Source of the DNA: Isoetes taiwanensis
Lineage: Eukaryota; Streptophyta; Lycopodiopsida; Isoetales; Isoetaceae
DNA length: 64,000 nt
Direction: 5' to 3'
Assembly (NCBI GenBank): GCA_021234155.1
Contig: JAJEKV010000059.1
Location: forward strand, 4,212,571-4,276,570
In this document: in pieces, positions 1,934-46,142 of the stretch
Layout: each line of letters opens with the position of its first letter
Numbering within the stretch: position 1 is the stretch's first letter
Program-made: the position numbers and the translations under genes
Notes under the pieces: model-generated
The model's database searches: none
What the model was told of the DNA's origin: nothing
What the model saw: only the letters and a program-made list of their open reading frames with translations

Positions 1934-4560
1934 TTGCAATCTTGTGCTCAGGACCTGTCATTTGCCAATAACTATTTCTATGCCCATGCTTTTAAGTGCT
2001 TGTATCCGTGGTCTAGCTTCCAAAGGAGGTTGAGGTGCGATTCTCTCACCCCTGTTTGCAAGCAAAGCATAACAGAATTCTGGAAACAAAATAGCAGAGT
2101 CTCTCCTTGCAAGAAAGATGTTGTGAACACTGTTGGAGAGTCAGGCTTCCGAATTTCTTATCCCTTGCACCTTATGGAGGTCACACAGGTATAAGTTTCC
2201 ATACAAATTTTTTTTTGCTATTATTGCATAAATATTTCTAATCAACGGCCACCATTCAGCTGCAGCTATTTCAACAATACAAAAAGGCACATCCTGAACA
2301 CCATGTTTGCTTAAAGGCTTTCGAGAAGTTGAAGCCTATTTATGTAAAGAAAGTATCAGAAAGGGAAACCTGTTGTTGCATATACCATATGAAGTTGAGT
2401 ATGCCAGGGTAGCCCTCGAATGCATTAAGGTCAACAAAACCGGATTTCATGGTGAAGAGTGCAAGTGCACCGCGAGGTCTGTGGACCTGGTGAGAAGTGT
2501 TCCGCCACCAACATACGTATGACTCAACCAAATGAGCTGGAGGGTCGTGGGTTTGCAACAAGAGCGAGGGTGAAGAATGGCATAAACATGACCGCTTGAT
2601 GCGCATATGTCGTGTGGCATAAAACTCTTCCTATATGTCCAAGAGAAAGAGAGAATCATGAGTTCTTGCTTGAATGGAAGACGCTTCAAAAGGTAATACT
2701 CTCTTTTTATTGCACTTTGAAAACATGCCGATATGTGTCGCCATCCACCAACACTTTTTGTGCTTTCAAACTTGCTTAATCTTCCGCTTTTATGCTACGC
2801 ATCTTGTTACGCATTCCAAAGGGAGACGTAAGAAGCCGGTGGAGTTGCATCATTTACCAAGGGGAGGTGCTGTGTGGCGCCAGAAAAGAAAAGAGCCAAT
2901 GCCACCAAGAAGGGAAACAAAAGTAAGAAATCCAAGGTAGTCGGGTGGGACACAACACTACCAAGCCGCACACAAGTTGAGAAGAAGGGAAACAAAAGTA
3001 AGAAATCCAAGGTAGTCATTGGGACACACCGTCGCAAAGCAGGTTGAGAAGAAGGGAAACAAAAGTAAGAAATCCAAGGAAGCTGGTGGGACAAACACCA
3101 AGCCGACAGACAAGACGAGACCTCAAATGGCAAGGGAAAAAAAAAGAAAGGACCAAAGCGGTCCTTAGATTGTCTTACAAGAGAACCAAGAAGTTGAAGG
3201 ATTTCATTTCATATCCGTGTTCCACATTGAAGATATTCGTGCCACACAATTATGTGGTTAGATGGCAGGCCATGCAATTCGTGAGTTGCCTAGACAATAT
3301 CCAAGATGGCACCATTGTTTCAGAATTGATTTTTGCAGAGAATTACAAGCATAAAAAATACAAAGGGAGGTTCAAAGCCAGCATTGGCACAATGACCGAT
3401 AACAATTCTCGCCCACATCACGATAGGATGGACATCAGGTTACGGGATCGTAAAAGCTATTGAAGGAAACCCATTTTTACTTGAGTGATGACAAGCTTCA
3501 TGACACTCTTTTGTGCAAAGACTGCCTTAGAAAGCACAATTCATGGCTTGTATCAAATGGTGTAGATTTCTCCGGTGCATATAGTTTGGTCGATGGTTGT
3601 TCTAGCCAATTCAAATCTGCTGCCGCCATTCTATTTCCTACCAAGATATCACCATGAGCTATGGAAGGAAATAGTATGGAATTTCTTTGGGACAGCCCAT
3701 GGTAAGGGAGAGCACGATGGGCAAGGGGCAGTCCTTAAAGGGGCATTCACTAGAGAGCAGCTCAAGTATGATGGGGTGAGATTTAGGGGTGTCGCTGATG
3801 CCCGTGGAATTGGAACTCGTTGGAATGAAGGTACCAACAATGGGGACATCAAAAGGTATTATGCTTTCATCCGTTGTATTCTCATTGAGTAGTGCCGCCC
3901 CAGAACCGGCCAGAATAATGTTTGAATAGTGCTTTCATCCGCTTTAAGTGATGTCCGTGGAACTCGTAACGCGTGATGAGTAGTGCCTGTATTATGTCAT
4001 TCGCGGAGCTGCGCAATACTTGTTATCTCCTGCGTACTTCTGGGTAATTGGAAAGGATGATGTTGATAGGATGCACTACCGGATTGGCGCTGTGGTGGAA
4101 GGGACCAAGCAAATACACAACATCCGGATATACTTGGCCAAATCAAGCACAAGGGTGGCTCATAGAGGTTTAACTTGTTTCGCGGGTAACCGCTTGAAAG
4201 GAAACGGGTCATCTTGTGTGAACAAGCACAAAGTTGAAGAATTGGAAATATGTTACACTAAAGCCGATAAGCCCACCGGGTGAAGGTAATCAAGACTAAA
4301 TCGATGAGGCATTTTTGAAGGTGATGGAGAATGGCTTAGTGGAAACGAGAGGAAGGTGATAACTTTGTCCGCTAGAAGTGAGGAGGGAAATCGCAGGAGA
4401 ATGCAGATTTCTATGTGGTCAAATGTGTTAAGTCGAGGCATATCCTTGATGTAATTGTCAAGGATTCTTTGGGGTCAGACCTTCAATGTGGATGAACATG
4501 TGTTGGCTGGTTTGTACTATGTCCGCCAGATGGTAGTTGGGAGCTACTTGAAGACAAAGG
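1934..4560 (+). pseudogene. Copy A: decayed DDE-type transposase-like gene
   Basis: This is a broken multi-exon gene related to those at 26552-29382 and 43213-46142(-). Recognisable blocks in order are: a FW-N-R-SP-KKDV segment (about 2075-2130); an ERETCCC-YH Cys block (2350-2385); a CKCTARSV Cys block (2459-2480); EEWHKH and ICPRERE (2575-2660); three lysine-rich repeats; a VPHNYVVRWQAMQF block (about 3240-3280); FAENY; a SDD-HDT block (3480-3505); DGCSSQFKS (3590-3620); and WNFFGTAHGKGEHDGQGA (3678-3730). A C-terminal block FYVVKC follows near 4405. Stops and frame changes occur throughout, so it cannot encode a full protein. The paired SDG and HGKGEHDG blocks look like an RNase-H-fold DDE core; that is inference. 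GT-AG-like junctions occur, for example GTATAAG after 2188. Exact exon limits are uncertain. Confidence 0.6.
2911..3110 (+). repeat. Lysine-rich coding tandem repeat
   Basis: A unit beginning AGGGAAACAAAAGTAAGAAA starts at 2911, 2986 and 3053 (periods 75 and 67 bp). In one frame it reads as KKGNKSKKSK-type repeats within the copy A transposase-like gene. The equivalent region of copy B has only a short lysine/proline stretch, so this is a local expansion. Confidence 0.75.
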
Positions 4561-5089
4561 CCTGACTTTCCAAAGACACCATCATCACGATCGCCTATCA
4601 AGTTTGAGATGAATCGATTCCCGCACCAACAGATTTTCCCTTGAACAAAGCTACTCACCGGATGATCCTTGGATACCGCCATATGAAGGTTGAATATGCT
4701 TTGACCTAGTTGTTTTATCATTGTAACAGGTCTGTAGTTACTTGTGTACTTGTCTCAAATTTTGATCATTGTATTGGAGACAATGCTTGTGAGACAATGT
4801 TTGTAGTATTGGATCTTTGATTGGAGTATTTTAGTATTGGAAACAATGCTTGTAGTATTGGAGAGTAAGCTTGATATATATTACAAAAAATTGTACACTC
4901 AAGATTAGAGACATCACTCAAGATCACTCAATACTCAAGATAAGACAAAGTAATCATACATATATATTACAAAAAAGTAGTGTACAATGGTTACTTCATG
5001 AGTCATCGAAGTCTTTAGAGTCATGCTCCTCGCCAGGAAGGGTGCCCAGCAGCTACCTTTGTACTTCTAATGGAGCATTGAGGATATAG

Positions 5090-5733
5090 TAGGCCGAGAC
5101 AAGATAGTTGTTGAGGCAAGAATCCAAAGACCGCAAATCGCTCTCCTTGTCCAACCATGCATCGTAGATGTCAATTTGTGAGATCGCTTTCTGCATCAGA
5201 AGAGAAGACAAGTATTCCAAAGCTGGACACATGCACTTGCGAAAAAGTTGTCCTCTTCTTGCCCCTTGAAAGGCATAACAGAACGGTTGTGTGTGTGTGG
5301 TTTAGAAACCTTTGTGTAGGCTGTCATCAACCAGAAAAATCATACCATGATATTGAGGAAAATCCTCAAGTACAACCTTCAACTCCTTGAAAAAAGGTTG
5401 CTTTTCTTTGCTGGTTGGATGCTCGCATGCATAGCAATGCTCTTGACCATATACCTTCAAGAATCTGGTCTGCAAATCAGGGAACAATGCATCCACCATA
5501 TCTTTTGTATTCCAAAGTAGAGAAGCACTCCAAATCACAATATCAAACCTCTGCAGTGCCCACTCCACAAACTCATGATACCTTGGTCTGCAAATGAGGT
5601 ACTTACTTGTAGTTTCTTTTACAACATGCTTCGTTTGTGGTGGAGGCAAGATTTTCCCGTTCATTCTCCTCTGTTGTGTCTGTGCCAGTACACCATTTAT
5701 GTCAAGCACCAAGCACTTCCGCTGGGTGTCCAT
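5090..5733 (-). pseudogene. Copy A: FCP1/NIF-like HAD phosphatase domain gene
   Basis: The open frame 5302-5733 encodes an FCP1-homology (NLI-interacting-factor type) domain. It starts with CLVLDINGVLAQT, the HAD motif I position with Asn in place of the second Asp. WALQRFDIVIWSAS follows (motif II region, Ser after W), then FPQYHGMIFLVDDSLHK (motif III/IV, paired Asp). FCP1-type enzymes dephosphorylate Ser/Thr, classically on the RNA polymerase II tail; a D-x-N variant box also occurs in plant FCP1-like proteins, as I recall. The frame stops at HKGF, but a C-terminal-like stretch continues in another frame to about 5090. The gene lies tail-to-tail with the transposase-like gene on its left, the same arrangement as in copies B and C. 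Confidence 0.65.
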
Positions 5734-5739
5734 CCCTCG

Positions 5740-8300
5740 ACGTTTTTAACCATCGCCGATGTGTGTACGATCGTGTTTGTCCGGCGGCCGCGATGTGGCC
5801 GGACTCTCACTGGAAGTGCTATCGGGAGGTCTTGGACATTGCCGCGACCGGCCGGACTCGGCTTTATCTTTGCTACCGTGATGATGGAGAGTGCCGATAG
5901 CCATAGTCGATACATCCTTATTAGTATCTCCCCGCCCCCAATGTATGGGTGTTTCCTCGTTATCAAGAACCCTTTGCGGTGCCTTTGTCCTCGGTTTCTT
6001 CATTCACGACTGCCTTGTTCTCCCGCATGCAAGGATGAGCTCCAATTAACAACCGAAATTTGTAGAGAATACACGCTCGAAATGTAACAGATAATGTGCA
6101 CCTTTTGTATGTTAGAGTTTTCAGGCACTTCTTTATCTCAGATTGTCTTCTTCATCGATTCACTAAGTATAACCATTGGTCGCCTTCTTTTTCTCAGAGA
6201 CAAGTTTTACGAAGCCTAAGTTGAATGAATAATCCAAACCAAAATTTGCACATTAAAGGTGGAATAAAACAGGATCAAATATATTAATTGTTTGAACAAA
6301 AACCTTTTGGCTGATGGTTTAGGGTTGTCTTACAAAATCAAGGTTTGTGGCCTCGAAATACATAAGGCAAAATTACATTAGCCTTGTTTTTTTTTTCCAA
6401 ATGATACTTCTATAGGGACGCCCTCATCAAGGTCATTTTCCGACTCACCCTCACTTTCTTCTTCCACAACCTTCCCCGCCCTTGACCGTGTCAACTCGCT
6501 TCACCGCTTAACGATCGTCTGAACTGGATTGCCGACATCTTCGCCATCATTTTCCTTCCCCGCAAAGAGGAGAAGGCCTTTGTAGAGGCAAATGCGTAAT
6601 TTGGAACTATAATATAATTGTTGGCACCATCGGCACTACTTGAATCTCCCTTTGATTCTCGTGATGCTTTGGTGTCTCCAAAGATTGTGCCGCTTTGCGC
6701 AGTAGTGTTGAAGATGGCCGGGTAGTTTGTCATTCAATGTCTACAAAGACCTTCTAATGCTGCCAATTCAAAATCGAGCCCCAAAACGGGCATGTACCTT
6801 TTTTCCCATGTCTTGGCCGTGGAGTGTGAACCCTTGTGGACTTGTGCTTTACCGATCCCCGGGTCCTTTTACTTTTGGTGTGTTGACTGTTTCCTTTTCC
6901 CGCCGCTATCGAGTTGTGGCTACATGCTCATCAACATCAATTATCTTCTTCTCGGTTTTGTGAGATGTTCCAAAGATGCAACACTTCACGCATCATTAAG
7001 CTTACCTATTTCGCGACTAACCCCCAGAGGGAATGGTCTCGCAACCGAGGCAAAGATCCTTTTTCCATGAGCAAACCGGTGCAGCTAACATGATAATGAT
7101 GTCCACATTTCATCCGCAGGGCCGAGGGTGTAATCATCCCCGAATGCAAGACCACGTGGTGGAGCATCTCCTCATCTCCAATTGGCAACCGGAATGGTAT
7201 TGGAGTGATGCCGAATCATTGATCATTTCTCTTGGTCATCTCCCTCAGCCTGGTGACATTCTGTAAGTGCTGCTGGGCTTTTGCAAGGAGGGACTCGTTG
7301 TTGGCAATCTCAACAGTTAGTGCAGCCACCTTTTCTACACAGGTTTGATCTATTGGCCCACCCCCCATTTCAAGTAGGGACTTCAAAGATATATTTCGCC
7401 ATATCTTTCTCCCTCTCCAAAGAATGAATCTCGCCAGAGACACCTACATTAGGATCCGCATTGTTTGAAGACGGGCAATATTATCCTTTATGGTCTTCAA
7501 CTTCCCCTCTGCAATGGAGAAGAAGGTGCCCTTTGTTCGAGATTGTGCAAACTGTTCCTTCTTTGACACTAGGTCACTGGCCGCATTTTTAGGGCTTCGC
7601 GATATCTTGGATCATGCTTTCCAGACGGGAAATATTTTCCCCATAAGCTGAGAATGCTGCTGGACACATTGCAGTACTCCTGAATGACAACCTCCCTTCT
7701 AATTTTACAGCAGATTCTGCCGAGGCTGGGCCTTCGCTATGCTTTCAGGTGCCGTTGTTCCATTTGGATTTGTTGGGTCATTTGTGTTCACCGGGTACGG
7801 GTAGTCCGGGTTCACTCTTGACCTTGCTCGAATAGGCTCGCTTTTGTCGCCATGCTGCCCAATTAACCTTGAAATTTTCGGGATCCCGCTGGCCCTCCGG
7901 GCGGTTGTTGAATGCAAATAAAAAGGAAACCATCTTCCTTACTTTCTCTATTCTTCAACCCTTCCGGGTATATCTTGCTCAATGGGTTCAATTAGAGCTT
8001 CTTCATGCTCGCCTTACTTTGTCGATGGATTTCTTGTTGGGAATGACACCATTGGTGTCCCAAACCTCATTATACTCGCTGCGCAGATATCACATCCGTT
8101 TCAAAAATTGAGAGGGATGCACACCCTCATTTGATAGACCCGCGATAAGCATGGAAGTCCTCCCCGGTTGGCAATCACCCGTGTCCGGTCTTAGGGCACG
8201 TTCCTTCGGGCTGAAAGAAAGCAAGGAAAACAAATTAACAGGGGCATCGTAAGCCATCAAAATTGGTAATCGTGATTTTGCTTACCTAGCGCGATGGCAT
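5740..8300 (-). pseudogene. Copy A: remnants upstream of the phosphatase gene
   Basis: The minus strand holds scattered coding-like pieces. The clearest is 7216-7443, a helical, probably coiled-coil segment (KVAALTVEIANNESLLAKAQ). It runs via a frame change into 7006-7188, which contains CGHHYHVSC, a Cys/His pattern like part of a zinc-binding domain. Copy C has a coiled-coil segment in the equivalent position (38400-38950), so this is probably the N-terminal half of the element's second gene or a separate upstream gene. Many stops intervene. I see nothing else recognisable between 5740 and 8300, and the right boundary of copy A is not visible. Confidence 0.35.
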
Positions 8301-8759
8301 CCATTGGAATTGCCGGCCGAGCCGGGGATTAACAACCTTCTTCACCATAGTGCGTTCGAGTTTTGGAATACTAGAGTGAATGTGGAAATTCTCGAGCTTC
8401 TTCTCCGCGGGCTATTTTGGCGGAGTAGCAAAAGGTGGGGAGCACGGTTGCAAATTACAAATTCAAAATCCCTTCCGCGGTCATTAGTTACGGTGGGCGT
8501 GAAGGTGTTATGATTGAAACGGGTACGCCCTATGTGAAGTGACGGGCATAGCATAGGTTAGACTTCAATTGGTGAAGGGTGGAAAAAATAGTATGAAGGG
8601 TCCTGGTGCTGGGTTCAGCACCGCGTTTATTTGATACCCACCAGCATACTTTCACCCCGCTACATTGCGTAAAAATCAGCAAGAACGATGTTTGATCTAT
8701 CGATGATCGAGCCAAAAGCCTTTTGGCGAGAGTGCTTTGATAAGAGGCATCAACCACCT

Positions 8760-10800: not shown

Positions 10801-10924
10801 CAATGCCCACTACAAGGGCTTTTCCTCCCACACGGGGTTTTTTCATCGGTGGTAGAGACACATTGTGTTGTGGTTTCCGTGGTTTTATTTTGTGTTTGGA
10901 AACTTTCCGCTATATTGTAAAACC

Positions 10925-11000
10925 GTCTCATAGGCCAGTTGGTCTCCGTGGGCGTTAAAATATACTTCCTTCCTTCCTTCCTTCCTTCCTTTTTTTTTAT
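10925..11000 (+). repeat. LINE-type 3' end with (CTTC)n tail
   Basis: The block TCATAGGCCAGTTGGTCTCC (10929-10948) followed by GTGGGCGTTAAAATA precedes five CTTC units and an oligo-T. The same block occurs at 20519-20590 (+) and 51426-51500 (-), each followed by its own short tandem repeat, so this is a mobile 3' terminus, not chance similarity. Confidence 0.7.
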
Positions 11001-13480: not shown

Positions 13481-13485
13481 GATTA

Positions 13486-13725
13486 GAACATGAACAAGAA
13501 ATTGAATTTATAGAGCCAATTGATGTGGAAGATTATGAAGTTCAAGAGGGAATGAGCAATGAAGAACTAAGGTCACTGATGCATAGGTCAGTGGCACACA
13601 TATATTATATGGAGAAAGAGAATGATATTGAGCCTTATAATCCAACGATTTAGATGACGATGAGTGGGAGGACATTCAACGTGACTTTTTGGTCAATGAT
13701 TTGATGTTAAATGAAGAAGAATAAT
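13486..13725 (+). pseudogene. Acidic C-terminal gene fragment, family unknown
   Basis: From about 13492 a frame reads an acidic polypeptide (EQEIEFIEPIDVEDYEVQEG, then further residues) to a TAG at 13651. A one-base shift continues it as DDDEWEDIQRDFL to a TAA near 13722. The acidic ending is reminiscent of transposase C-termini. A CACTA terminus lies 0.9 kb downstream, so this may be the tail of that element's protein. I do not recognise a domain. Confidence 0.35.
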
Positions 13726-14603: not shown

Positions 14604-14639
14604 TTGACCTCTTATTGACACAAGGAAGAATTAGCCCTT

Positions 14640-16400: not shown

Positions 16401-16412
16401 CGGATCCATAAG

Positions 16413-16510: not shown

Positions 16511-16520
16511 TGATGAAACG

Positions 16521-29382: not shown

Positions 29383-29745
29383 TACGACCACCCTCGTTAG
29401 GCTTTGCAAATTTGACATGACTTTGGTGAAAGACAACACAGTATAGTATGGATGAGCGGACATGCCAACAAATAATGAGGCTTTGCCTTCAAGTTGATAA
29501 CAGTTTAGGAGCAGCAATTGTGCAAAGAAGATAAAAATATTCATTGATAACTTAATAAGTATATCCAGGTCCAAAGTATATATCAAAATGTATACAAAAT
29601 TGGCCAGCCTACATGAACAACAAAAATGGCTGGCTGTCAGTTGACTATTTACAATTTGTTTCACCTAACTATTTACAAATTGTTTCAGGTGTTGCAAGGC
29701 AGAGTTGTTGATGAACTTGCTATCACTTTTGTTCGATCGACCACT

Positions 29746-31804: not shown

Positions 31805-32110
31805 ATGGCATGGTAAAATTTGTATTTCCCGTTAAACTCGTTTTAATAGTATAGTCTCAACGGTTAATTAGAAATTATGTTTGCGTAATTCACGGGTGCA
31901 CTACTGTCAGTTACATTACCAATGGCTAGTGAATTTCAATCCATCTAACCAAGCAATAATGTATTTTAGTGTTCTCACCTAAATATAAAAAGTGGGTATT
32001 TTCACTAAAACATTTGAATCGGTTGAACAGTAAATCTTATACCCGAAGCGGATGATGTGCTCTTCGATTGATCCATCACCAAGGCGAGCGAGCAAGAACA
32101 CAGGTTGGTA
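31805..32110. promoter_or_regulatory. Putative divergent promoter region
   Basis: About 300 bp lie between the ATG of the phosphatase gene (-) and the probable 5' end of the ParB-like/methyltransferase gene (+). At about 32100 the sequence ACAG|GTTGGT could be the donor of a 5' leader intron ending at CAACAG (32931). Both genes could share this control region. Inferred from layout only; I see no certain TATA box. Confidence 0.3.
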
Positions 32111-32232
32111 TAACATCTTTTCTTTCTAGTGCACTGCTAACATCTCACTGCACCCGTTCAAGGTTTTCTCCTTTTCATTTCATGTCTCGGAAGTCTGAAA
32201 CTGAGTACATCTTCAAACCCGCCTCATGTTTT

Positions 32233-32830
32233 CTTGAACGGTGCCGTTCAAGGTTTTCTGTTTGAAATGTTCAAACTCCAAGTTCTTAAAACCTGATATC
32301 ATTTTCAAATCTATCCCTTTATCACAGTAGCTGAACTTGCTGAACGGTACCGTTCATCGTTTGAGGCTTCTTCTTCTTTAGCTTATTCAAAAATTTCATG
32401 TATCTGGCCGAAATTTCTAGTTTCCTCAAGTTCATTCATTTCTTGACCGGTGTCGTTCGGGTTTTCATGCTAGAATTTTCATGTTCGAAATAGCATATTT
32501 CATCTATCGAAATTATCTTGAACGGTGTCGTTCGAGTTTTCATGCTAGAGTTTCATTCTCGAATTATCATATTTAATCCATCCACATGTTCTTGAACAGT
32601 GCCGTTCGAGTTTTCATGCTAGAGTTTTATGTTCGAATTAGCATGTTCAATCTATCAACATTTTCTTGAACGGGGTCGTTCGAGTTTTCATTGCAGAGTT
32701 TTATGTTCGAATTAGCATATTCAATCCATCCACATTTTCTTGAACGGTGCCATTCGAGTTTTCATTGCAGAGTTTTATGTTCGAATTAGCACATTCAAAA
32801 TTTTCAAATTTTCTTGAACGGTGTTGTTCA
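32233..32830. repeat. 74-bp tandem array of GAACGG-CCGTTC palindromes
   Basis: Units begin with CTTGAACGGTGCCGTTCGAG or a close variant at 32442, 32517, 32591, 32665, 32739 and 32813, giving spacings of 75, 74, 74, 74 and 74 bp. Single diverged boxes occur at 32233 and 32340 (the latter, GAACGGTACCGTTC, is a perfect palindrome). The units also share TTTCATGCTAGAGTTTTATG and TTCGAATTAGCATATTCAA. The array lies just 5' of the first coding block of the ParB-like/methyltransferase gene, probably within its leader intron. A protein-binding (iteron-like) role is inference. Confidence 0.88.
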
Positions 32831-32902
32831 ATATTTTTTGGTTTTGCTTCTGGTTTTCAGTAAGTATTTTTCTGCTTTCCTAAGGTACATTTTTATTTCC
32901 TG

Positions 32903-33409: not shown

Positions 33410-34039
33410 TGTTAAATGTTGAGTTATCAGATGATAAAAGGGATGATTGATTGTTTGAAGCTTGAAAGATCAATATTAAGTTGTCAATGGAGCAAGAGGT
33501 AACATGATTAAGGGGGAATGTTTGTTTAAAATCGAAAATTCCAATGGTTGTGAATAAGCTTTTTTTAAGGGGTATGCATGTGGGATAATTCGAATTGAGA
33601 AGAAGCCGTTTTTCTACGTATTGCCTGTGGGATAAACTCAAGCACTATTGTTTCCATCTGTGGCTGCTAAGATCCTGCCTAAACCGTCGGAATGAGCAAA
33701 TATAAGCACAGGAGAATGACTATAATGATATACTTGGAACCGTTTGTGTGTTGAAGCAGCGAAGACAGTCGGAAGTACTTAAGTTCTCGACCCGATCCCT
33801 TAGCTACAGTACCTCAATGGTTTAATGCCTATGATTTGCTTCAATGGTCAATGTTCTATGGAAAGTTAGTTTTAAATCAAAGGATTAGGGACCACAACTT
33901 GGCTCCTTTGATCTCATAGAAAAATTTCTTAACTTCCATTGTTTCTTGAATATTAGTAAAGGTTGCATTATTGACCTGATCAAGGTGTCTCTAAATTGTT
34001 AGAAGCAAATAAGATCTTGCAGACTCTCATTTTCTATCA
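33410..34039 (+). repeat. Copia 5' LTR
   Basis: 630 bp, TG...CA ends, followed directly by the primer-binding site. It matches the split 3' LTR (47167-47266 plus 57071-57600). The intact reading CATGATTAAGGGGG near 33503 shows the empty site of the CACTA insertion. Confidence 0.95.
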
Positions 34040-34040
34040 T

Positions 34041-34052
34041 TGGTATCAGAGC
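34041..34052 (+). other. Copia primer-binding site
   Basis: TGGTATCAGAGC follows the LTR after one base. It is complementary to the 3' end of plant initiator methionine tRNA, the usual primer of Copia elements. Confidence 0.9.
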
Positions 34053-34064
34053 TCAGGTGTTAAA

Positions 34065-35050
34065 ATGTCTATTAGATTTGCAGCAAATTTGTTGAATCAA
34101 ATTGAAGTATTTAAGGGGGATACGGGTTTCCAAGTGTGGAAAGAAGGTATTAAGTCTATTCTTGAATTTGAAAATTTGTGGTATTTAGTAGATGGAGGAC
34201 AGATTAGAACCACAGCAAGTTCTGGAGGGTCAAGCCCTGGTGTAAGCACAAGTGCAAGTGCATCAAGTGGAGAAGCTGAAGGGGGTTCTTCAACTCAAAC
34301 AGCAGGTGTTTCTGATATGGCAAAGATTAAAGAAGCACAAGCAATTATTCTAAGCAAGGTTGGTACTGCTCTTAAGTTGAGATTAAGAGGGATGAAACCA
34401 CATGAGATGTGGCAATATTTGGTGAGTCAATATGAAGTCAAAAGTTCTTCTCAAATTGATGTGTTGGAGAAGCAATTGAGGAAATTAAAGTTATTTGAGA
34501 AAGATAATTTCACAGATTTTCTTGAAAAGTTTGACTCGATTGTTGCAGACTTGGAAGGGGAAGTGATCAATATCAGATCCTGGCTTTGTCTAGGGCAGTT
34601 TCTCATAATACTCAGTTGGCAACCCTTATAAGGAATATAGCAACATCAAAGGAGCATGCTTTGAGAATGATTCGAACTGAGTTCGAGCAAACAAAAGGCC
34701 TATATGATGATGATGATCAATCTGTTGAGTTGTTGTTTGCAGGGAAACAAAGAAGAGGAGGAAATGCTAGTTTTGGAAGAGGAGACAAAGTGGGACCTTG
34801 CTTTGCATGCAATCAATATGGACATTTGAAATCAGACTGTCCAAATGCAGGTAAAAGTTTTAAATGTTTTAACTGTGATGGAAAAGGTCATTTAGCAGCT
34901 GATTGCCCAAGTCCAAAAGGCATAAGTGGGAAAGGAAGAGGTCGAGGTCGAGGCTCAAGGGGTCGAAAAAGGCATAAGTGGGAAAGGAAGAGGTCGAGGT
35001 CGAGGCTTTCAAAATTCAAGGGGTCGAAGAAAGCCCAGGGGAGGATCTAG
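34065..35050 (+). pseudogene. Copia gag (nucleocapsid), two frameshifts
   Basis: It starts at ATG 34065 (MSIRFAANLLNQIEVFKG). The capsid-like part includes GFQVWKEGIKSILE and DVLEKQLRKLKLFE, typical of the plant Copia gag family (UBN2/DUF4219 type). A frame change occurs near 34575. Two zinc knuckles follow, CFACNQYGHLKSDC (34799) and CFNCDGKGHLAADC (34864), which bind genomic RNA. A second frame change comes from a 52-bp tandem duplication (copies start at 34919 and 34971, GGCATAAGTGGGAAAGG) in the Arg/Gly-rich tail. Gag of this copy cannot be made as one chain. Confidence 0.85.
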
Positions 35051-37677
35051 CATCAACATAGTTGAAGATACTAAATCAGAAGAAGAAAATTTGGATGATA
35101 CAATAGAGGTAACAAAATTACTCAGTGTTGTTCAGAAGTTGAATAAATTTGACAACAAATTCCTTGTTATAGATTCAGGAGCAGAAAAGAGTGTAGTACA
35201 TGATCCTAAACTATTGAAAGAATGCAAAAGGAAATGGGGTCAAGTACAACTTGGTGATGGTGGAGTGCAAGATATTAGAGATTCAGGAATTTTGGAGATT
35301 TTTGATCTACAAGGGAAAAGTGTATTACTTAAGGAAGTTTTGTGTGTTCCAAACCTAGTGAGGAATTTAATATCAGTTTGCCAGCTCGTGTATCTTGGTT
35401 TCAAGGTTGTATTTGAAAAACTTCAATGCAAAATATATCAAAACAATATTCTGAAATTTATTGGCAGAAGGGTTGGTAATTTATTTGGCTTTCAAAAAGA
35501 AAAGACTCCAAGTATTAATATTGTTGAATTACCAACTAGAGACACATGGCATAATAGATTGTGTCATACAAACAGGGCAAATGTCGAGTTGTTAGAGAAA
35601 AATAAATTCATAACAGTCAAGGGAGGAGATATGAAAAGATTATGTGCTGGTTGCCAGCTTGGCAAGCAAACAAGACTGCCTTTCAAAAAGTCTGCTAAGA
35701 GAGCTAAAGGGATATTGGATTTGATCCATACAGACCTGTGTGGTCCAATGAATATCACAAGTATGCAACAAAACAAATACTTCATAACTTTTATAGATGA
35801 TTTTAGCAGGAAGACAAAATGTTATCTGCTTAAAACCAAAGATCAGGCTTTTGATGCACTCAAACTGTTTGTGGCTGAAGTTGAACTAGAAAGAGGAAGA
35901 AAAATTAAGTGCATAAGGTCTGATAGAGGAGGAGAGTATTTGTCAGGTGAGTTTAAAGCTTTTTGTGCAAAGCGTGGTATAAAAGACAATTGACTTGTAG
36001 GTTTTCACCCCAACAAAACGGTGTAGCCGAAAAGGAAAAATAGGACTACGTTGAATCTTTGTCGAGGTCAATGCTAAAGTATTCAGGATTGCCTAATTTT
36101 ACGTGTGGATGAAGGCGGAGAACCGCAAATCTACATTCAAAATATGCGGCCTACAGTTAGCACAAGAGGAACAATACCTAATATGTTGTGGTCAAGAAAA
36201 ATTCCAAGTTATGAGCATTTAAGATCATATGGGTGTCTAGCTTTTGTTCATGTTCCTGAAGAGATAAGGAAAAAGCTTGATGATCGAGCATGTTTGCCTA
36301 CTTAGTAGGATATGATCCTAACTCTAAAGGCTATAGGTTATATGATCCTGTGCATAGGAAAATATTAATCAGTAGGGATGTGGTGTTTGATGAAGAAAAA
36401 TATTACAAGGCCATTCCAAATGTAAATGAAAAGATTAAAGATATAAATGTGGAAAATACTAATACTGTGATTGCAGAGGCTGCTGAACCAACTTCTCAGG
36501 TTGTACAAGGTGTAAAATTGGATAATGATAGTGACTCTGAAGACGAACCTGACCAAACAAGAGAAATTAACTCTGATGCAGAAATACAGCAAGAGGTTGA
36601 GTCAACAGTTGAACAATCTGAAAATGAACATGAGGAGTTGCTAGAGCCTTTGCCAATAATTGTCCCTGAAAAAAGACAAAGAATGAAGAGAAGATCTGAA
36701 GCTCAGATTTTGGCTGATGAAGCTAGGGTCAATATAGAGTTATTTGGAAGAAGTCAAACTGGAAAAAGCAAAAGGTATGAAATCTTTGAAGTTAATTCCT
36801 TGTTTGATATTCTGATCTTAGAAACAGATGATGTGCCACTTACCTTTGAAGAGGCTGTGCAAAGTAGAAATTCAAATCATTGGATTCAGGCAATGGAAGA
36901 GGAAATGCATGCTTTTAAAAGAACTGGCACTTATACAGTAGTAGAAAAACCTCCAAATAAGAATGTAGTTGGAAGCAAGTGGATTTTCAGAGTTAAACAA
37001 GGAGTAGATGGGAAGCTAAATAAATTTAAGGCCAGGTTGGTAGCACGGGCTTTACTCAAAAGAGAGGCTTGGATTTTGAAGAGACATTCTCTCCCTTGGT
37101 AAAAATTAATAGTTTGAGAATATTATTGTCAATTGCAAATGCACATGAGCTCGAAATACATCACATGGATGTAAGTACAGCCTTTTTGAATGCAGAATTA
37201 GAGGAAGAAATTTATTTAAAACCTGCATCTAGTTTTGAAGAAGAAAATAACAAAGTCTGGAGGTTGAACAAAGCGGTTTATGGATTGAAGCAAGCTCCAA
37301 GCGAATGGTATAGGTGTATGGATAATTACCTTTTGGAGCAAGGTTTTCAGAAATTGCAATGTGATGTTGATGGTGAACATTGGTGTATTATTGCCCTATA
37401 TGTAGATGATAATATAATGGTTGCAAATAATACATCAATATTATGTCATTGTAAAAAGTTGTTGAAGAATAGGTTTCGGATGACAGATCTAGGGGAATTG
37501 AAGAGATTTTTGGGTATTGATATGATTAGAGATAAGAAAAACAAACTTTTGATGTTGAGTCAAGAAACCCAGATCCTCAACATGCTTAAAAAATTTGTTA
37601 TGAGTGAATGCAACATTGCAAACACTCCACTGGTACCAGGGCATAAGATATCAGCATTAATGTGCCCAAAGACTCTT
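35020..37677 (+). pseudogene. Copia pol: protease, integrase, reverse transcriptase
   Basis: The protease active site is VIDSGAEKS (about 35167). The pre-integrase zinc region has H-x3-H and CAGCQLG (35545-35660). The integrase DDE core has HTDLCG (about 35727) and SDRGGEY (about 35920); the third-residue region QQNGVAE follows at 36013 after a stop at 35991. Several stops and shifts lie between 35990 and 36300. Reverse transcriptase starts near WIQAMEEEM (36880). A one-base shift near 37050 breaks LVAR-GF, then SPLVKINSLR and LYVDDN (YVDD at 37399-37410) follow. The frame ends where the inserted transposon begins (37678); in the empty element it would run on into 46458. Confidence 0.88.
37674..37677. 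repeat. Target-site duplication TCTT, left copy
   Basis: TCTT precedes GGGTAAAAGC here and follows GCTTTTACCC at 46454-46457. Joining the flanks with one TCTT restores the Copia reading frame (CPKTLEEQKLMENVPYR), confirming the insertion limits. Confidence 0.9.
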
Positions 37678-37699
37678 GGGTAAAAGCATGAAAGGGTGT
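37678..37699 (+). repeat. Copy C terminal inverted repeat, left
   Basis: It starts GGGTAAAAGCATGAAAGG and continues GTGT. The right-end counterpart is 46432-46453. Palindromic TACATATACATATGTA follows at about 37719. Confidence 0.88.
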
Positions 37700-37930
37700 C
37701 TATAAATGTAGCCCTTTTTGTACATATACATATGTACAAAATGCACATTTTTGGAATAACTGTCATCATGATCCGCTAGTAACTGCCATGATTAATGGCT
37801 ATCCACTACACGAACCTTAATTATCGGATTTTGAAATTCTTTCCCAAATTCTTTCTTGGTTTGCCTCTCGTTCACTATCCCGCCCCTGCCTTCTCTCGCT
37901 TGAATTCGATCACGAATTCTTCATCTAGCT

Positions 37931-39170
37931 ATGGCCCCAAACGCCCCCGGATGAGTGCTTGCTCATCACCACAGCCTAAGCAAGAAGCCGGTGCTTCCGC
38001 AATGGATTTTACCTCCAAGGAGTTTACGTTTGGGTTCCGAGGTGATCCAAGCCAAAGACCTCCGTGATAAATATGCAGAGGCCCACATACCCAACCTAGA
38101 GATGGTTATGAGCGAGGTATGGGGTGCAGCTCAAAAAAGCAGGCGAGGATTCAAGGAAGGGAGAATCCAACGCATGGAAAGATGATTTTTTAAATATTAT
38201 GAATTGGTTTATGGCAAGAAAGCGGGTTACAAACCATTATATTTCTACCTATTTTGCGAGCATTTGCTCTTCACTTGAAGGGGCGGCTTTGTTGATTGGA
38301 TGGGCGTGGCTAGGACCGCCAAAGATCTTGCCAAAACCCTCATTTCGGGCGTTACTGAGAGGACCCTACAACAAAATCCTCAACTATCAAACAGGGACAT
38401 CGTATTGCTTGTGAGAATATTAGAGCCCTGGGTTATTCTAGATCAGATGTTGACACAATAAAGCAGTTACTTAAGCATGGGTTGGAGGAGAAAACTAACC
38501 TATTGAATGAAGTAGAAGCATTGGAAGAAAGAAGGAGGGATGCATTGAAGGTCATCAGCCGGATTGAGGGTAGAAAGGATATGCTATCAGAAGATCGGCA
38601 GCAGATCTGCTTTAAAAATAGATGAGACAAAACAGAATTTGACAAATTGTCCCGAGGATCCTGGCTGGAAATCAAGTTATGTTGGTGTTGAAGTACAAGT
38701 TGGAAGACTTGGTTATGAGTAGACATGATAAAGAGCAAACACTCTTCTAAGCTAGACATTGGTTTGCGAGGAAGCAACTAAAGAAATTGAAAGGCATGAA
38801 ATCTCAATTGAACAAGCAAAGGAAAAACTTAATTGCATTGAATTGGTTCAGCAAAGGCATTCCGTGATTTTGGATTTCATGGGGAGAGCGGGACCTATTG
38901 TTCGCGACCGAGGCCCCACCCTCAGAGGGGAGCTACTTCTATAGAGCAGTTCATCACATTCAGGTTCATGTACCTGTTGTGGCCAAGGCTTTGGCAAAAC
39001 CGGGTTTGTTCTTTACTAGCTCCATGCAGAGATGCTTATTGCCTCTTACGCTTGTGTTATCGGGTCCATGAAAAGATTTAATTGCATAAAAGGTTGCATC
39101 CGGGATGAGGGCATTCAAATTGCTTGGTTTCCCCTTTGTGAAAGGTATGCATTGCTCTCAACTAATTTAA
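37931..39170 (+). pseudogene. Copy C: left gene, coiled-coil/Cys remnants
   Basis: Coding-like pieces in shifting frames include ILPPRSLRLGSEVIQAKDLR (38002-38060), DIVLLVRILEPW (38398-38435), a coiled-coil stretch LNEVEALEERRRDALKVI (38504-38560) and a second one EEATKEIERHEISIEQAKEK (38766-38825). A Cys-containing tail (SCTCCGQGFGK) lies near 38965. Copy A has a coiled coil and a Cys/His patch in the equivalent place. Stops are frequent. I cannot assign a function; it is probably the N-terminal half of the FCP1-containing gene or a separate third gene. Confidence 0.4.
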
Positions 39171-39179
39171 ACTTATATT

Positions 39180-39680
39180 TCACTTAATTCATATTTGTTA
39201 TTGTAATCTGCATAGTTCTACATGTATGGCTTTCGGTGCATTGCTATTCCTTGTACATGTATAACTTTTAGTGTACATCCGTAGCGTAGGTACATAGGCA
39301 TATATTTGCTTGTTTATTGATGCTTTTATTTTTGAGCTTGGATTTGCGGTTGTATCGGTTGTACATGTCTCTAATGGAGTCTACATCCGCAAATAGATGT
39401 ATATGCATTTATTTTTAGAGTGCATCCGTAGATGGATTCATAAGTATGTGCATTTTTACATATATGTGCTTTTTTTTGGGCATAGATCTACATTCCCTAA
39501 GCGGATACACAGGTACATCTAGGTACATCGGTGTACATCTGGGTATCTTGATGTACCTTTATGTACATTGAGGAACATGTACATGTACATTTGGCTATAG
39601 TTAAATGTAGTTACTTACATTTGGTACATTTATGTACATGAAATGTACATGCTTGGCGAATGTACCGATATTTCTCATTA
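39180..39680. repeat. TGTACAT motif cluster 1 (copy C)
   Basis: More than a dozen TACAT/ATGTACAT words, many palindromic (ATGTACAT, ACATGTACATGT), are packed into 500 bp, often as GGTACATC or TGTACATC. The same motif recurs at 44940-45320 and near both ends of the element. Transposase-binding sites are one explanation. Confidence 0.7.
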
Positions 39681-39699
39681 GTTACGTTTTCATGTTCTT

Positions 39700-41870
39700 T
39701 TATGTCTATTGAAATTTAGATCATTTGTTTGTTTTGCGGATGAGGTCGTTCCTATCCCGGCGGCTTTAATGGCTGATGTTCTTGAGCCATCTGCGATCGA
39801 CTCTTCTTCTGATTTGACTGAGCATAATAAGCGGACCGAATCTGTAGACCCTCTACCTTCCAACTCAGATCACCAATGACATTTACGAGTGCCATTAATA
39901 GAACAAACAATGCACAATGCCTCCTCGAACATGGCAAAGTGAAGTTGAGGAAATTGAGAGGATGGCACTTGAGAAAGCTAAAGCGGTTAGGGTGCAGACC
40001 CTTCAATGGATGCTTTGCCGCAAATGAAACTCCTTCATTACCAAGTGCTAAATTAGTAATTGGAGAAGCTAAGAAAGATTGACTTTCTCAAAGATCATCT
40101 GCGGAGGTCGATTCACGGACCATTGTTACGTAAGAAGCTACAAAGGAATCGGGATCAGATTTTATCCCGGGAGATACCGGGGAAGAGGAAGTCGAGTTGG
40201 TAGTTGAGTCCACTCCAAAGAGGAGGCAAAAGAATGCTGGTGATGGCACTCAAGAGGAAAAAAACAGCAAAATCTCCTCCAAAGCAAAAAAAAATGTCCT
40301 CCAAAAGAAAATCTCCGGGCAAAAAGTGCCACCACCACCTAGAAAGAGGTATGTCCAAGATGAACTAATTTTGTTAAACATCTCAGATTTATGATAATTA
40401 ACCACATTTTTTTTGTACATAGGACACGCGATCACAGCCGTGAAGGAAGCTGATCCCGATCCTTCCGAAGTCGAACGGAAGAGGAAGAGGATGAGGATCT
40501 ACAAGCAAATATTGATGTGATAACAAATAAGGTCAGGAGTCCACGAAGATCTTGAAGCGGTGATGAATTTACAAGGTGAGTAATATACAATTGATTACAA
40601 TAGATATATTCTTTTGCTAATCTTTGTTGTTTCCTTATACAGTTTAGTGAACCTAATCAAAAGGTTGGTTCCATTCACTCCTTATAGGGATTTGTCCTCC
40701 TAAGCTGCACCCTCTATCTTTCAAAGTGATGTTGACGAGTTCTCACTGGAAGTGGACTTGACCTCTAAGATGGTAGATGTCTATGGAGGTAGGCTAGCAT
40801 TTCAACATATTTATGTTATTTCATTCCCTAAGTCACTCATCTTATGTATTAATATGTATTCGGATTTGTGTGCGTGTACCTTTGTAGCAGATCTTCCATC
40901 CGATTGGAAACACAAGTTTTTACGGTTCGATAGGACACCTTCAATTTTGTGAATTCCCTCAAGAGCAAAGTGATGCACGTAACACTAACATAAAGGAAGG
41001 CTGGATGGCATTTTGATTGCAAGATGCCAATACATATTTGTTCCAATTCTGCAAGGCCCAAATGTGGCATTGGCAATACTTGTGCTTGCTTTGGTCGGTG
41101 AAAAGCTCTTGTCCATCTATAGCTAGCCCAAGTATCTGAGATCCTCTCTCTGTCAAAGGCTATGTACCCGATGCTAAAGTGGTCCGAAGTAAGTATGAGT
41201 TTCGCATTTTAGTTTTATGATTTGATTATTCTCATATTGCAATTTCTTATGCTTGATTTATTCTCACATTGCAATTTTGCGGGTTTCATAAGCTTGTGAT
41301 CAATAACATGATGCTAGGATCCAACGGCTTAAATCATGGTAGGAAGAACTTTGATGCTCCCGTGTTACGTCCTAAAATGCCGTAAACTAGTACCAAAGAA
41401 CCCTTGCATGTACATTGTGGCTTACATGCACAAATTCATAGATGCCGTGGTTGATGCGCCAAGCTCCATTTTTGTAAGTAGAACATGTTATTTTCCTATT
41501 AGTTATTTGTTGGTATAGTCCTCTAATACTTGTGCACCATGCGGATGACACCCGGTTGGTTCGATGCCTATGCCAAGTCGCGGAGGGATCATCTAATGGA
41601 GGCATTAATTGTAGAAGGCTTAGATGAATATACAAGCGGTTGTTCCTACAGGGTAGATAGTCCCTTTGACTTGTTTGTGAATTTACGTTTTGTATAAGCC
41701 ATGCTCGAGCTTCTTTGTACTCAATAAGTAATGAAAATATTAATTTATTTGGCTCACTTACACCGTGCAAATAAGAATTGTGTAATTATCAATGTGTTTT
41801 TTCTCAATTGTGTAATCTGAAATGTAATTATAAATTGTGAATAGACTCTCAAGTGTTTTTGCCGTGGTGA
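39700..41870 (+). other. Copy C interior, coding remnants only
   Basis: Short coding-like pieces occur, such as VPIPAALMADVLEPS (39749), a Lys-rich patch (40200-40350) and FSLEVDLTSKMVDVYG (40738-40788) with a possible GT-AG intron to 40890. A stretch near 40980-41120 reads CQYIFVPILQGPN. I considered a Ulp1-type protease there, but the frame breaks and catalytic residues are not readable. No gene is assigned. Confidence 0.3.
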
Positions 41871-41881
41871 ATCATCTAATC

Positions 41882-42330
41882 AGGAGAAAGCTCATTATCT
41901 TTGACTTAAATTCGTGGTTGGGCAAGAGTGTGGACAAGAATGAAAATATTAACTCAAGATACCAAAAGATCCGAAAGATGAGCTTCAATTCAATATAGGA
42001 AGCAGTGTTTTTTTTTGCGAGGCGGGGTTAGCATCACTTTTTTGCATTTGTAAGAGAAGGGTTTGATGTTGCCATCCGGTCTTCACTCACTTCTAAAAAT
42101 CTTCTACCAATTGTGGATCAAATTTGTGATGCTTTTTCCATAAAGTGAAGTTTGTTTTGACCAGGCAAGATGTTGGACTCGCCACACAAACACCCTATCG
42201 AACCTCAAAGGGGTTGTTTGTGAAGCCATTAGTCGTGGTATGGAAAGAGTACCCCAGTACTATGGAAATACGTTTTGATCGATGACGAGATACAAATCCA
42301 CTCGAATCCGTAGGAAGCTACATATGTCCT
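41882..42330 (+). pseudogene. Copy C: FCP1-like phosphatase domain
   Basis: From 41882 the frame reads RRKLIIFDLNSWLGKS (D-x-N catalytic box, as in copies A and B). After frame changes come FVREGFDVAIRSSLTSKN (42050-42100; Arg replaces the Trp of WSS), then KPLVVVWKEYP and, in another frame, YYGKYVLIDDEIQ (42220-42295), matching the FPQYSERCILVDDSVYK block of copy B. Order and spacing equal those of the other two copies, so the assignment is firm although the gene is badly decayed. It converges on the transposase-like gene at 43213-46142(-). Confidence 0.6.
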
Positions 42331-42424
42331 TTCTCTTGGACACCAATATTAGCCGGGCGACGGTTTTGTTTGTCATGGAGCTCATTCCATGGCTTAATGG
42401 ATTGAAAATGGTCAAGATGGTATA

Positions 42425-43191
42425 GTGTATGTAAAAGAGCATCCAATGACTAATGCAAAGCAGATAGCATATCGAGGCGGTGGAAAATATTTTGTTTGGC
42501 AAACTATGGCAAAGCAACTTGGGTGCTCACGCCTAAATTTAGTCAATATATGGAGCAAGCAATGGAGAAATGCGGCCATGTTATTGGCCTCTCGAGTGGC
42601 CCATTGTTGGTACAGACTAAAACTGATGTACAAATTCAAATGTTATGAATATATGTATGAAAGTTTTTGTTCATTGCACTTGAGTACTCTGTTTTTACTG
42701 TCTTTCTTATTGGTACAATTATGAGTGTGTATACATAATTAAGTCAATCTTCATTTGCTTTGTAGATGAATGGACTGAAACACAAAATACTATTATGAAA
42801 CTAAGAGATAGAGTTCTGCTGCACCCAGAGGTAATAGAAACCAACACAAGCTGCAAGCACATAGGGTTGGGGACCGATTATCGCCTCTATACTGCTGTTC
42901 CTGGACTGTGGGAAAAGGTTGACCAAATTGAAAACTATGAGGAACGAGCAACCACAAAATGTATATTGGCAGCAACTCACTTGTTGCACAACCCTTGGGG
43001 AAGGCCGCGGTCAGGAAGATGAAGGCCATGTAGGATGGAAAGGTTTGCCGGTGGCACGAGCTATAGAAACCGCATGGACTACTGCGTTAGAGGATATCTC
43101 TACAGCCTCTAGGCGGGCTGGAAGACATGATGCAATAGTCATAAGATATCAGGCTCCTACTGACATTTTGAAGCTAGGCCATGAATTATGA
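42425..43191 (+). pseudogene. Copy C: unknown coding segment between the convergent genes
   Basis: Two coding-like stretches are present: 42425-42600 (YVKEHPMTNAKQIAYRGG, and WSKQWRNAAMLLA) and 42795-43191 (KLRDRVLLHPEVIETNTSC, then after a shift GWKGLPVARAIETAWTTALE). The second may be the last exon, following an AG near 42764 (TTTGTAG). I recognise no domain. It may be the C-terminal part of the phosphatase gene; in copies A and B that tail differs too much to tell. Confidence 0.35.
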
Positions 43192-43212
43192 GCCATGCTC
43201 ACTTTCAGGCTC

Positions 43213-46142
43213 CTACTTATTGTGGCAGCCTGGGATTAGTTCATAATATTGTCCTTCAATGACACTAGTGCCAGCAGAGTAATCATTTCCATAGTCATCA
43301 ATTGAATCTTCTTCCAATGCATGCTTTTCCCTGGTGCACATGATAACATAGTATGAAACACCTTCCACATTGTCTGGTGCTGCAAAAGACACAAATACAT
43401 CTGAAACTCCTACAGTGTCATCTAAACCAGCCTCGTCTTCTGCATACAAAACATCCACATCATTTTCAGCTTCACCACAAGAGGCAATATGATCTGTGGG
43501 CTCCAAACTTTTTAGAGACCATTCTCCACAATGTTTAATGTTCTCACAATTCAACCAATTGAAGTTAATGCAAGCATCACAAAAGCACTAGAGTGAGATG
43601 CAGATAGCAACTTTGTTGGATCTGGCTTTGGTTTATAGTTGACCGCAGAATGTATCTGGCTGAAAGTACTGTGTAAAGTCTTGCAATTGAATGCTTGCTG
43701 CTGTTCACATCTATTTTTCCAACCTCCCAAAACACCCTTTCACAATCCGATTCCTTGGCCCTTAAAACTGCACAAGCTGTTTCTGCACCTGTCACTGGCA
43801 TGCCATTTTGTTTTCTCTGCTCACTCTCAAGCCACAACTTTGCTATACCAGCCTCGCCATCATGTGTGCCTTTCCATGGCCAGATCCAAAGAAATTCCAT
43901 ATCACTTTCGAATTTTATTTTCAACATGGTATCTACAGATTCCATACCATGCCGTCTGATTTGGATTGAGATGCACAACCATCCGACCACACATAATGAA
44001 GGTTTATGTGTCCACCTCCATTATTCTTAAGCCACCCCAAATGTAATTTAAAACCATGTTGCACAAAATGAGTGTCATGCTTTCTCGTCATCCGAAACAT
44101 AGAAATGCAATTTTTTTTTAAGCTTACCTTCTATTTTCATCATTGAAATATGGACCAAAATACTAATTTGATCGGGATTCCAATGCCGGATTGCACTACG
44201 TCCCCTGGTTTCAATGTGTAGTTCTCTGCAAAGTCAACAAATGACAACACACTATTATCCAGGAGTTTCTCAACACATCTTTTAAACATTTTGCTCTGCC
44301 GGTGTCTTAACGTAAAGTTATGATCGTAAACTTAGCAAGCTGATTTTTCATGTTCTTTAACAAAACGGATGCTTTGTCATTATTCGATCAACTAATCTAA
44401 GCCTTACGGATGTACTTTTTGGATGGCTCATTGACATATGCATATACTTGCTACCCACATTCTGAATTCCATCTTCCTCGTTTGGACAGATGTCGAATTT
44501 CTTCACTCCACATTCATCACATTCGCCTTTGATGCATTTTAGTTTATGCCATTCATCCGTCACAAATTTCTAAACCTGTTGACCTCCACAAGATACTAAC
44601 ATTATCAAAAGTCTTCTTGTTTGCTTGACATACTCCATTGATTTTTTGGGATGCCAGACAACTGCAGCAGCAAGTGCAATTAACATGTAGGGATCTCCTC
44701 ATATCATTGAAGGCCTTTCTGTACAGATCTGCTTGCTCATGTTTGACACAACAACATGTGTTTCTCTCCTTCAATTTCCTTATGCAATCAGGTTTCAGAT
44801 ACCGAACCGTCGGCTTAATTTTGGTATCGGGGATTACGATATACAAACTGATGATAAAGCTTCGGTTGCAATAACAAAACCATTAAAGACCATGTTAGCA
44901 AAATGATGTCGGCAACCGGATGCCAAAAGAGTATTGAGCTATACTATTGTACAATTAATGTATGGTCTATGTACATAAAATGTCCATCCAACAGTTCAAT
45001 CGATCACATCTTGTACATCTAATGTACATCTAATGTACATCGGTAATCTAATGTACAGACCATAGCAGTTCCATCGATCATTTATTGTACATCCAATGTA
45101 CATCCGGTGTACATCTAATCAATGTTCCAATATTAGTACATCACATTAATGTTACAATATTAGTACAACTAATGTACATATGTCGATTTGTTTGGCTTCA
45201 TTACGAAAAGTACACTAAACTTTAAAATGATGTAATTTTGATATTCAAGTACATGTAAATGCGGTTTTGCATGGACATGTAAGTGTTAATGGATGTACAT
45301 CTAAAAAGTACCTAATAGCACATCACCGCAAGATTTACGCTCTTTGTGTAAACAATGTATAAATGTAAACAATGTAAAATGCAATACATTTCATGAAAAC
45401 CATGTGTATTCATTAACAAAGGTCACTTTCGAATGAGAACTAGAATGTACGGAAGAAAGTCATGAAAGAATTTTGGAAGAAAACATAATCTCCAAAACTG
45501 AATTGATTCAATTACAAGAGCAAACTGTGAGATATCAAGGTATTGTATTGCTTGTGTTCTCCTCTTCATGACATCTCTAACCTTTGGTGAAACTTTGGTA
45601 TTGTCAAGCCAAAATTCACTTAAGACGACATTTGATTGAATCATCGATTCTATTTGATCTTGGCATCCTTCACCGCCAAAGCCCATACATTTGCTCCACT
45701 TAATGACATTATCTTCCTTCTTGCTGCGGCTTTGGATAAATTTCTTGGTCAGTATCTTTAGCAATTTTGAAGAAACATTCTTGTTTATATCTCCTTTTTT
45801 CCAACAATCATTGATAATGATGAATGTTTTGTACCAATTTATCTTTGCTATTAGCGGACTTTACTTCTTGAAGCCCATCTTTCAAGTTTCGATCATTGAT
45901 TTCATAACAATAACCCGGAAGGATTTCCAATTCTGAGGTTCAAAACGGGGAAAAAGCACGTCATCTTGCAATAAACGATCACAAAAACTAATCTTTGATC
46001 TCGACCGAGCGTTTGCCAAAGAATCGAGGATGCAATCTACCACCTGTCAACACGCTGCTTTATTTGTTTTGTGGCATAACACCGGCCAATGTCGATACTT
46101 ACGCTTAGAACCATCACTTCCATTGGAATTCTCACCCTCCAT
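43213..46142 (-). pseudogene. Copy C: DDE-type transposase-like gene
   Basis: It starts at ATG 46140-46142 (MEGENSNGSDGSKRKYRHWP), about 290 bp inside the right terminal repeat. An almost open N-terminal region follows. Then come FWLDNTKVSPKVRDVMKRR (45560-45615), a KERNTCCCVKH block (about 44750), NCTCCCSC (about 44680), DEWHKLKCIKGECDECG (44510-44560), FVDFAENY (about 44240), a frame break near 44090, KHDTHFVQHG, YVWSDGCASQSKS (43950-43990), and EFLWIWPWKGTHDGEAGI (43855-43910), where HGKGEHDGQGA of copy B is changed. The C-terminal YYVIMC...GQYYEL block lies at 43225-43360. Cysteine spacing is conserved with copies A and B. Frame breaks make it non-functional. Confidence 0.65.
44940..45320. 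repeat. TGTACAT motif cluster 2 (copy C)
   Basis: Ten or more TGTACATC/ATGTACAT words occur, for example CTTGTACATCTAATGTACAT (45011-45030) and CCAATGTACATCCGGTGTAC (45091-45110). The cluster lies within what should be an intron or spacer of the minus-strand transposase-like gene. Confidence 0.7.

Follow-up and report, generated by a model that had tools for sequence, protein, structure and literature searches.

How a phosphatase-like gene comes to lie tail-to-tail with a transposase-like gene at three places in one window of DNA (the whole analysed stretch of 64,000 nucleotides from Isoetes taiwanensis), and what it might do there, is the question raised by this locus. Cut-and-paste transposons usually encode a transposase only, sometimes together with a DNA-binding or protease partner, and a search of the open-licence literature found no account of a transposon with accessory genes such as those described below. 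The reading favored here, to which we assign a probability of roughly 0.6, is that the window holds members of a Sola-like group whose conserved accessory unit would help the element to persist in its host by way of an altered phosphatase and a RING-like partner.

The original prediction placed a DDE-like gene and a gene with FCP1 homology 3' end to 3' end in three copies, A, B, and C, and profiles built from genomic relatives recovered both genes, in convergent orientation, in all three. The limits of the copies had been set at 1934-5733, 26552-31804, and 41882-46142, and are here redrawn. Copy A (approximately 2005-8657, plus strand) is a near-complete A-family element without its left end, delimited by alignment to the genomic copy L042, to which it shows 86-89% nucleotide identity over 2005-8657, and by its right terminal inverted repeat (8635-8657, minus strand), which begins GGGTGAAAGTATGC on the minus strand and is the repeat present at both ends of a further relative, L041. 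Transposase pieces of copy A, located by scanning the window with the alignment A2 profile, lie at 3092-4615 on the plus strand (best E 1.6e-33), with a weak N-terminal piece at 2242-2403 found by the same profile, while the phosphatase-like gene, which carries the motif LDINGV, occupies 5047-5745 on the minus strand (Pfam NIF E 8.4e-14 for the open reading frame at 5305-5745; profile E 2.9e-71 for 5047-5727). At 7060-7695, also on the minus strand, is the remnant of a coiled-coil/RING-like gene (profile of alignment A3, E 4.9e-39), a third gene that was missed by the original description.

Copy B (25517 to approximately 30497, plus strand), assigned by family similarity to the B family, is truncated on its right side; it is approximately 92% identical to L010, L012, and other copies, and this similarity is gone beyond approximately 30497. 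Its left terminal inverted repeat, a B-family repeat, is at 25517-25538 (plus strand), its transposase pieces are at 27561-29391 (plus strand; A2 profile, best E 2.7e-66), and its phosphatase-like gene, with the motif MDLNSV, is at 29668-30423 (minus strand; NIF E 3.7e-10 for the open reading frame at 29749-30501; profile E 9e-107 for 29668-30420). Adjoining the truncated copy, the minus strand of 30728-31831 holds two open frames of 126 and 241 amino acids, neither of which matches a Pfam family above cut-off.

Copy C (37678-46453, minus strand) is a complete C-family element of 8,776 bp, as established from its terminal repeats and flanks: C-family repeats are found at 37678-37699 (left, plus strand) and 46432-46453 (right, minus strand), the target duplication TCTT is found at 37674-37677 and 46454-46457, and the element is approximately 90% identical to two other complete copies, L072 and L073. 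Its genes are remnants, namely of a phosphatase-like gene with the motif FDLNSW at 41879-42142 on the plus strand (profile E 4.3e-10, with a weak continuation to 42261 at E 0.1) and of a transposase at 43225-44370 on the minus strand (A2 profile, best E 2.5e-37, with a weak piece extending to 44834). The Pfam NIF family matches above cut-off in copies A and B, but not on the fragment in copy C, where it is the profile that finds the remnant. Copies A, B, and C represent three families of one transposon group, with differing terminal sequences; the strong divergence noted between them is real but is caused by their belonging to different families, and a recent segmental duplication had rightly been rejected as their source.

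Searches of the 1.66-Gb genome assembly, in which two MIR166 loci score over the cut-off, as suits a land plant, revealed six families in all, designated B, L15, A, L20, L44/45, and C. The phosphatase-like gene is found in each of the six, which bears out the view that its pairing with the transposase is ancestral and part of a DNA transposon, and five (B, L15, A, L20, and L44/45) possess the transposase, the phosphatase-like gene, and the coiled-coil/RING-like gene, the order being transposase, phosphatase, RING-like in the B, L15, A, and L44/45 families. In the C family, copies L072 and L073 carry transposase and phosphatase remnants, and matches to the RING-like gene fall below significance (E 0.15 in L072, 2.4 in L073, and 0.02 in copy C of the window). 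Terminal repeats of approximately 20-25 bp, every one beginning GGGTR, were read in five families. They are present at both ends in the B, L15, A, and C families, in all four of which the transposase and the phosphatase lie between the same terminal repeats; for the L20 family the left end was found and the right end was not, and for the L44/45 family termini were looked for and not found. Wherever both ends were examined a 4-bp target duplication was present (21 of 21 elements: 14/14 of B type, 3/3 of L15, 1/1 of A, and 3/3 of C), with A or T at 66 of the 84 duplicated positions.

The abundance of these elements can be gauged from their termini. The B-family repeat, searched as 22 bp with at most two mismatches, occurs 273 times genome-wide and the C-family repeat 4,203 times, with no match for the reversed control in either case; the approximately 4,200 terminal repeats of a single family mark the group as very successful in this genome. 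The first 100 of the 273 B-family ends include both termini of 12 complete elements of B type, none longer than 8.6 kb, and every one of these elements contains the phosphatase (10 as judged from the genome match list, and C907 and C986 by direct reading), a result contrary to what would be seen if most full-length copies were without it. Among 100 of the 4,203 C-family places there are 26 end pairs, 16 of which span 9-10 kb and 10 less than 400 bp. The short pairs, known by span alone, are inverted-repeat in form, measure approximately 250-265 bp, and are probably miniature derivatives. A phosphatase-less lineage was considered for L020 and L043 and rejected: the phosphatase is present in L070 and L071, two further members of their family, and L020 is a deletion derivative that retains the phosphatase remnant LIVLDLNGVLVKTF, while L043 is rearranged, with no phosphatase in 8 kb.

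The association between the genes also extends genome-wide. Taking 150 of 154 phosphatase matches and 150 of 157 transposase matches, pairs within 12 kb are tail-to-tail in 63 cases, head-to-head in one, and same-strand in none, against an expectation of 0.33; the 63 pairs comprise 64 phosphatase and 58 transposase matches, some of which are pieces of a single place. In the A family, 150 phosphatase matches and 116 of 142 transposase rows gave 44 tail-to-tail, two head-to-head, and two same-strand pairs among the matches listed, with 0.25 expected. An L15-type query yielded 107 rows for the RING-like gene, of which 90 were used, the remainder being more fragments of the same places. Among the matches listed, 30 of these 90 have a phosphatase neighbor, invariably on the same strand and with the RING-like gene upstream (30/30), and 22 have a transposase neighbor, invariably tail-to-tail (22/22). 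Phosphatase matches without a transposase partner (86 of 150 in the B list and 104 of 150 in the A list, among the matches listed) need not stand alone in the genome, given that the lists comprise only part of the matches. The RING-like matches obtained with the L15-type query adjoin not one of the 150 listed phosphatase matches of A type. Chance neighbors, or a host gene, were rejected on the basis of pair counts that lie far above expectation and favor one orientation.

The transposase itself is more difficult to place. Its pieces in L011 and L020 match no Pfam family, including rve, the family of the Gypsy-type integrase found in Ginger transposons. A profile of the transposase found no match in the PDB better than E 0.79, and a search of viral contigs with one L15 transposase gave 17 pattern matches and no relative. 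As candidates for a DDD/E catalytic triad, Asp residues in VIDFAE, WSDGC, and KGEHDG are common to those transposases whose aligned sequence extends over the stretches in question, and the structure model (pLDDT 42.6) is too poor to place them. TTAA duplications are typical of piggyBac, Kolobok, and Sola3, and none of the 21 target duplications seen here is TTAA.

It is Sola that the group resembles, and it does so in its termini and target duplications: Sola elements, including Sola2-Fanzor1 of Dictyostelium fasciculatum and Polysphondylium pallidum, are characterized by short terminal repeats and AT-rich 4-bp target duplications, and sometimes carry a captured extra gene, Fanzor1, much as extra genes are carried here (PMC3627910, PMC10741241). 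The extra genes differ, being in the present group an SCP-like HAD protein in six families and a coiled-coil/RING-like protein in five. The absence of any Pfam match, and of a PDB match better than E 0.79, would also suit a transposase of an undescribed superfamily that is not Sola and likewise makes 4-bp duplications. We regard this as possible though doubtful, given that short repeats and AT-rich duplications fit Sola as described (PMC3627910, PMC10741241) and that Sola annotations exist for two ferns, Azolla and Ceratopteris (PMC6786969, PMC6890710). The group is accordingly spoken of here as Sola-like, cut-and-paste transposons.

Characterization of the phosphatase-like protein reveals both what it shares with known enzymes and what it has lost. 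Its scores against the Pfam family NIF (PF03031), at 52, 40.1, and 43.2 bits, exceed the cut-off of 21.8, and across the 20 rows of alignment A1 three residues are invariant: D10, the nucleophilic Asp; K118, the Lys; and D138, the motif IV Asp. Position 12 of A1, in contrast, is Asn in every row except two DxDxT host rows, and the second motif-I Asp is replaced in 28 of the 28 element copies read (by Asn in 27 and by Lys in one, L011), a count in which several copies stand for each family and are non-independent. Mutations of the acid/base Asp of SCP1 inactivate that enzyme, and this residue, D98, is the one that we take to be matched by position 12 of A1. Among the fold matches is a crystal structure of SCP1 bearing D98A (entry 3l0y); the open-licence literature searched yielded no text on mutations of this Asp inactivating SCP1. 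In HAD phosphatases the second Asp serves as the general acid/base (PMC12715507).

A structure model of the L15-family protein from L018 (pLDDT 91.6) aligns with SCP2 at Z 20.6 (rmsd 2.1 over 161 residues), followed by SCP1 (20.1), CTDNEP1 (18.7), Tim50 (17.7), UBLCP1 (17.1), and Fcp1 (16.6). By Foldseek E-value it is CTDNEP1 that comes first (E 1.9e-12). The protein is thus predicted from the model to have an SCP-like fold, with SCP nearest by Z. In profile searches, a single element protein used alone reached only E 0.011 (Fcp1), and the inclusion of the two DxDxT host rows in the phosphatase profile raised the scores to SCP1. In comparison with SCP/CTDSP proteins (human SCP1 and SCP2) and FCP1, the likeness of the element protein lies in its fold, nucleophilic Asp, Lys, and motif IV Asp, while it differs in the second motif-I Asp, in being encoded by a transposon, and in the stretch between motifs I and II, which is poorly conserved even across the element families of A1. 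In a tree of 38 rows all DxN sequences form a single clade that excludes the DxDxT host rows, with long branches meeting and a weak inner order, and no host progenitor of the gene was found among these rows.

The third gene encodes a protein whose frame stops before that of the phosphatase starts in the copies read. The eight-ligand spacing pattern of RING-H2 domains is reproduced in the 10 rows of alignment A3 as C-x2-C, C-x-H, H-x2-C, and C-x2-C, and the eight Cys/His columns are invariant or at least 90% conserved; Pfam RING matches nevertheless remain below cut-offs. The RING-like part is preceded by a stretch that is coiled-coil-like in appearance (with a weak match to Pfam FPP, below cut-off) and is followed in several copies by a Lys-rich tail. 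When compared with RING-H2 E3 ligases such as RLIM and RNF13, the likeness consists of the eight-ligand spacing and weak profile matches (E 0.19-0.23); the element protein, known here from sequence alone, differs in falling below the Pfam cut-offs.

Evidence for selection comes primarily from the L15 family. Between its old lineages, at dS 0.8-1.1, the phosphatase has a dN/dS of 0.18-0.32, and the L15 ratios are 0.17-0.33 in RING-like pairs and 0.14-0.23 in transposase pairs (the last at dS 0.36-0.53), these rows again including several non-independent copies per family; L15 transposase pairs that have hardly diverged yield an uninformative 0.79-1.87. The accessory genes are therefore, to judge by these ratios, under purifying selection between old lineages of this one family. 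The ratio is 0.37-0.60 within the A family and spans 0.27-0.91 between B copies of recent origin, as expected when decay follows insertion. In the same L15 element pairs, synonymous divergence of the transposase half is approximately half that of the accessory half. Similarly, L041 is 86-92% alike to copy A and L042 on the left and only 68% in the right half, which contains the RING-like gene, whereas copy A and L042 are 86% alike throughout, the right half included. Taken together, the lower transposase dS and the right-half divergence of L041 indicate that the right-hand module has been exchanged between lineages.

The architecture, termini, recurrence, purifying selection, predicted fold, and missing acid can all be read from the sequences, and a function may be proposed for the accessory unit. 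The two accessory proteins would help the element to persist in its host, the altered phosphatase binding, or slowly turning over, a phosphoprotein that would be either a host protein or the transposase, with the RING-like protein as the partner that would modify or remove it. With the nucleophile, the Lys, and the metal-binding Asp kept and the acid/base Asp gone, it is expected that a phosphoprotein would be bound with slow turnover or none. Such binding or slow turnover, probably in conjunction with the RING-like protein, appears more likely than the FCP1-type action on RNA polymerase II originally proposed. A more specific version, in which the SCP-like protein captures a phosphorylated host factor of silencing, transcription, or DNA repair and the RING-like partner marks it for removal as a two-part counter-host unit, is offered as a speculative and rather unlikely elaboration; were it true, the families of the group would depend on disarming the same host pathway. 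An SCP-like protein without its acid/base, lying beside a RING-like protein, under purifying selection, and present in deeply diverged families, would provide a handle on how plant DNA transposons meet host control, and opens the question of which phosphoprotein a transposon needs to bind.

One alternative holds that the phosphatase-like and RING-like proteins have no host target and instead bind or modify their own transposase, in the service of dose control, assembly, or cell-cycle timing. That the accessory genes are encoded convergently with the transposase in every family examined favors this possibility, yet the halved synonymous divergence of the L15 transposase half suggests partly separate histories and argues somewhat against tight co-adaptation, such that we consider an exclusive transposase target unlikely, if well worth keeping in mind. 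Considerably less plausible is an active FCP1-type phosphatase that acts on the C-terminal domain (CTD) of RNA polymerase II and aids expression. The FCP/SCP fold, the NIF match, and the retained nucleophile, Lys, and motif IV Asp would accommodate such an enzyme, but the fold is nearest to SCP, the acid/base Asp has become Asn (27) or Lys (1) in all 28 copies, the stretch between motifs I and II is poorly conserved, and nothing singles out the CTD; the proposal is regarded here as improbable. Least credible is that the gene is a functionless passenger, derived from a single capture of part of a host gene: fragments of host genes are common in transposons, and many phosphatase copies are broken by stops, but many others hold open frames of 250-390 amino acids, all six families have the gene, and the L15 dN/dS of 0.18-0.32 was obtained with dS near 1.

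Returning to the window, copy C may provide information on how such elements move. It is inserted in the pol region of a Copia-like element, between the parts encoding reverse transcriptase (37030-37680) and RNase H (46380-47108), these domain names being taken from reading the translations. The Copia-like element spans 33410-47266 and has near-identical long repeats, 100% identical over 100 bp and 98.5% identical over 535 bp provided that, as inferred, a 9.8-kb insertion splits the right repeat. That insertion seemingly does so and appears to be flanked by a 5-bp duplication, TGATT; the Copia-like 5' end occurs a second time at 57066-57600. The genes of copy C are decayed, and the copy is approximately 10% diverged from L072 and L073, though the surrounding repeats are 98.5-100% identical; the presence of a decayed copy within an element with near-identical repeats suggests mobilization in trans of copies that had decayed beforehand. 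Rfam gave no match in the window, and 32477-32846 holds a tandem repeat with a 74-bp unit.

Phosphatase genes of the DxN type are also found in many copies elsewhere in the genome. At two such loci, L068 and L069, no transposase of the present kind was found in the 8-8.5 kb fetched, and the phosphatase is preceded, in the same orientation, by a gene that contains, as seen by eye, a similar stretch in each (GGNVAREAL and GGYIGREAL); these loci possibly represent a second kind of mobile element with the same phosphatase family. At a further locus (L017:4585-5715, minus strand), the phosphatase frame is continuous with an upstream stretch that, again by eye, resembles a retroelement protease.
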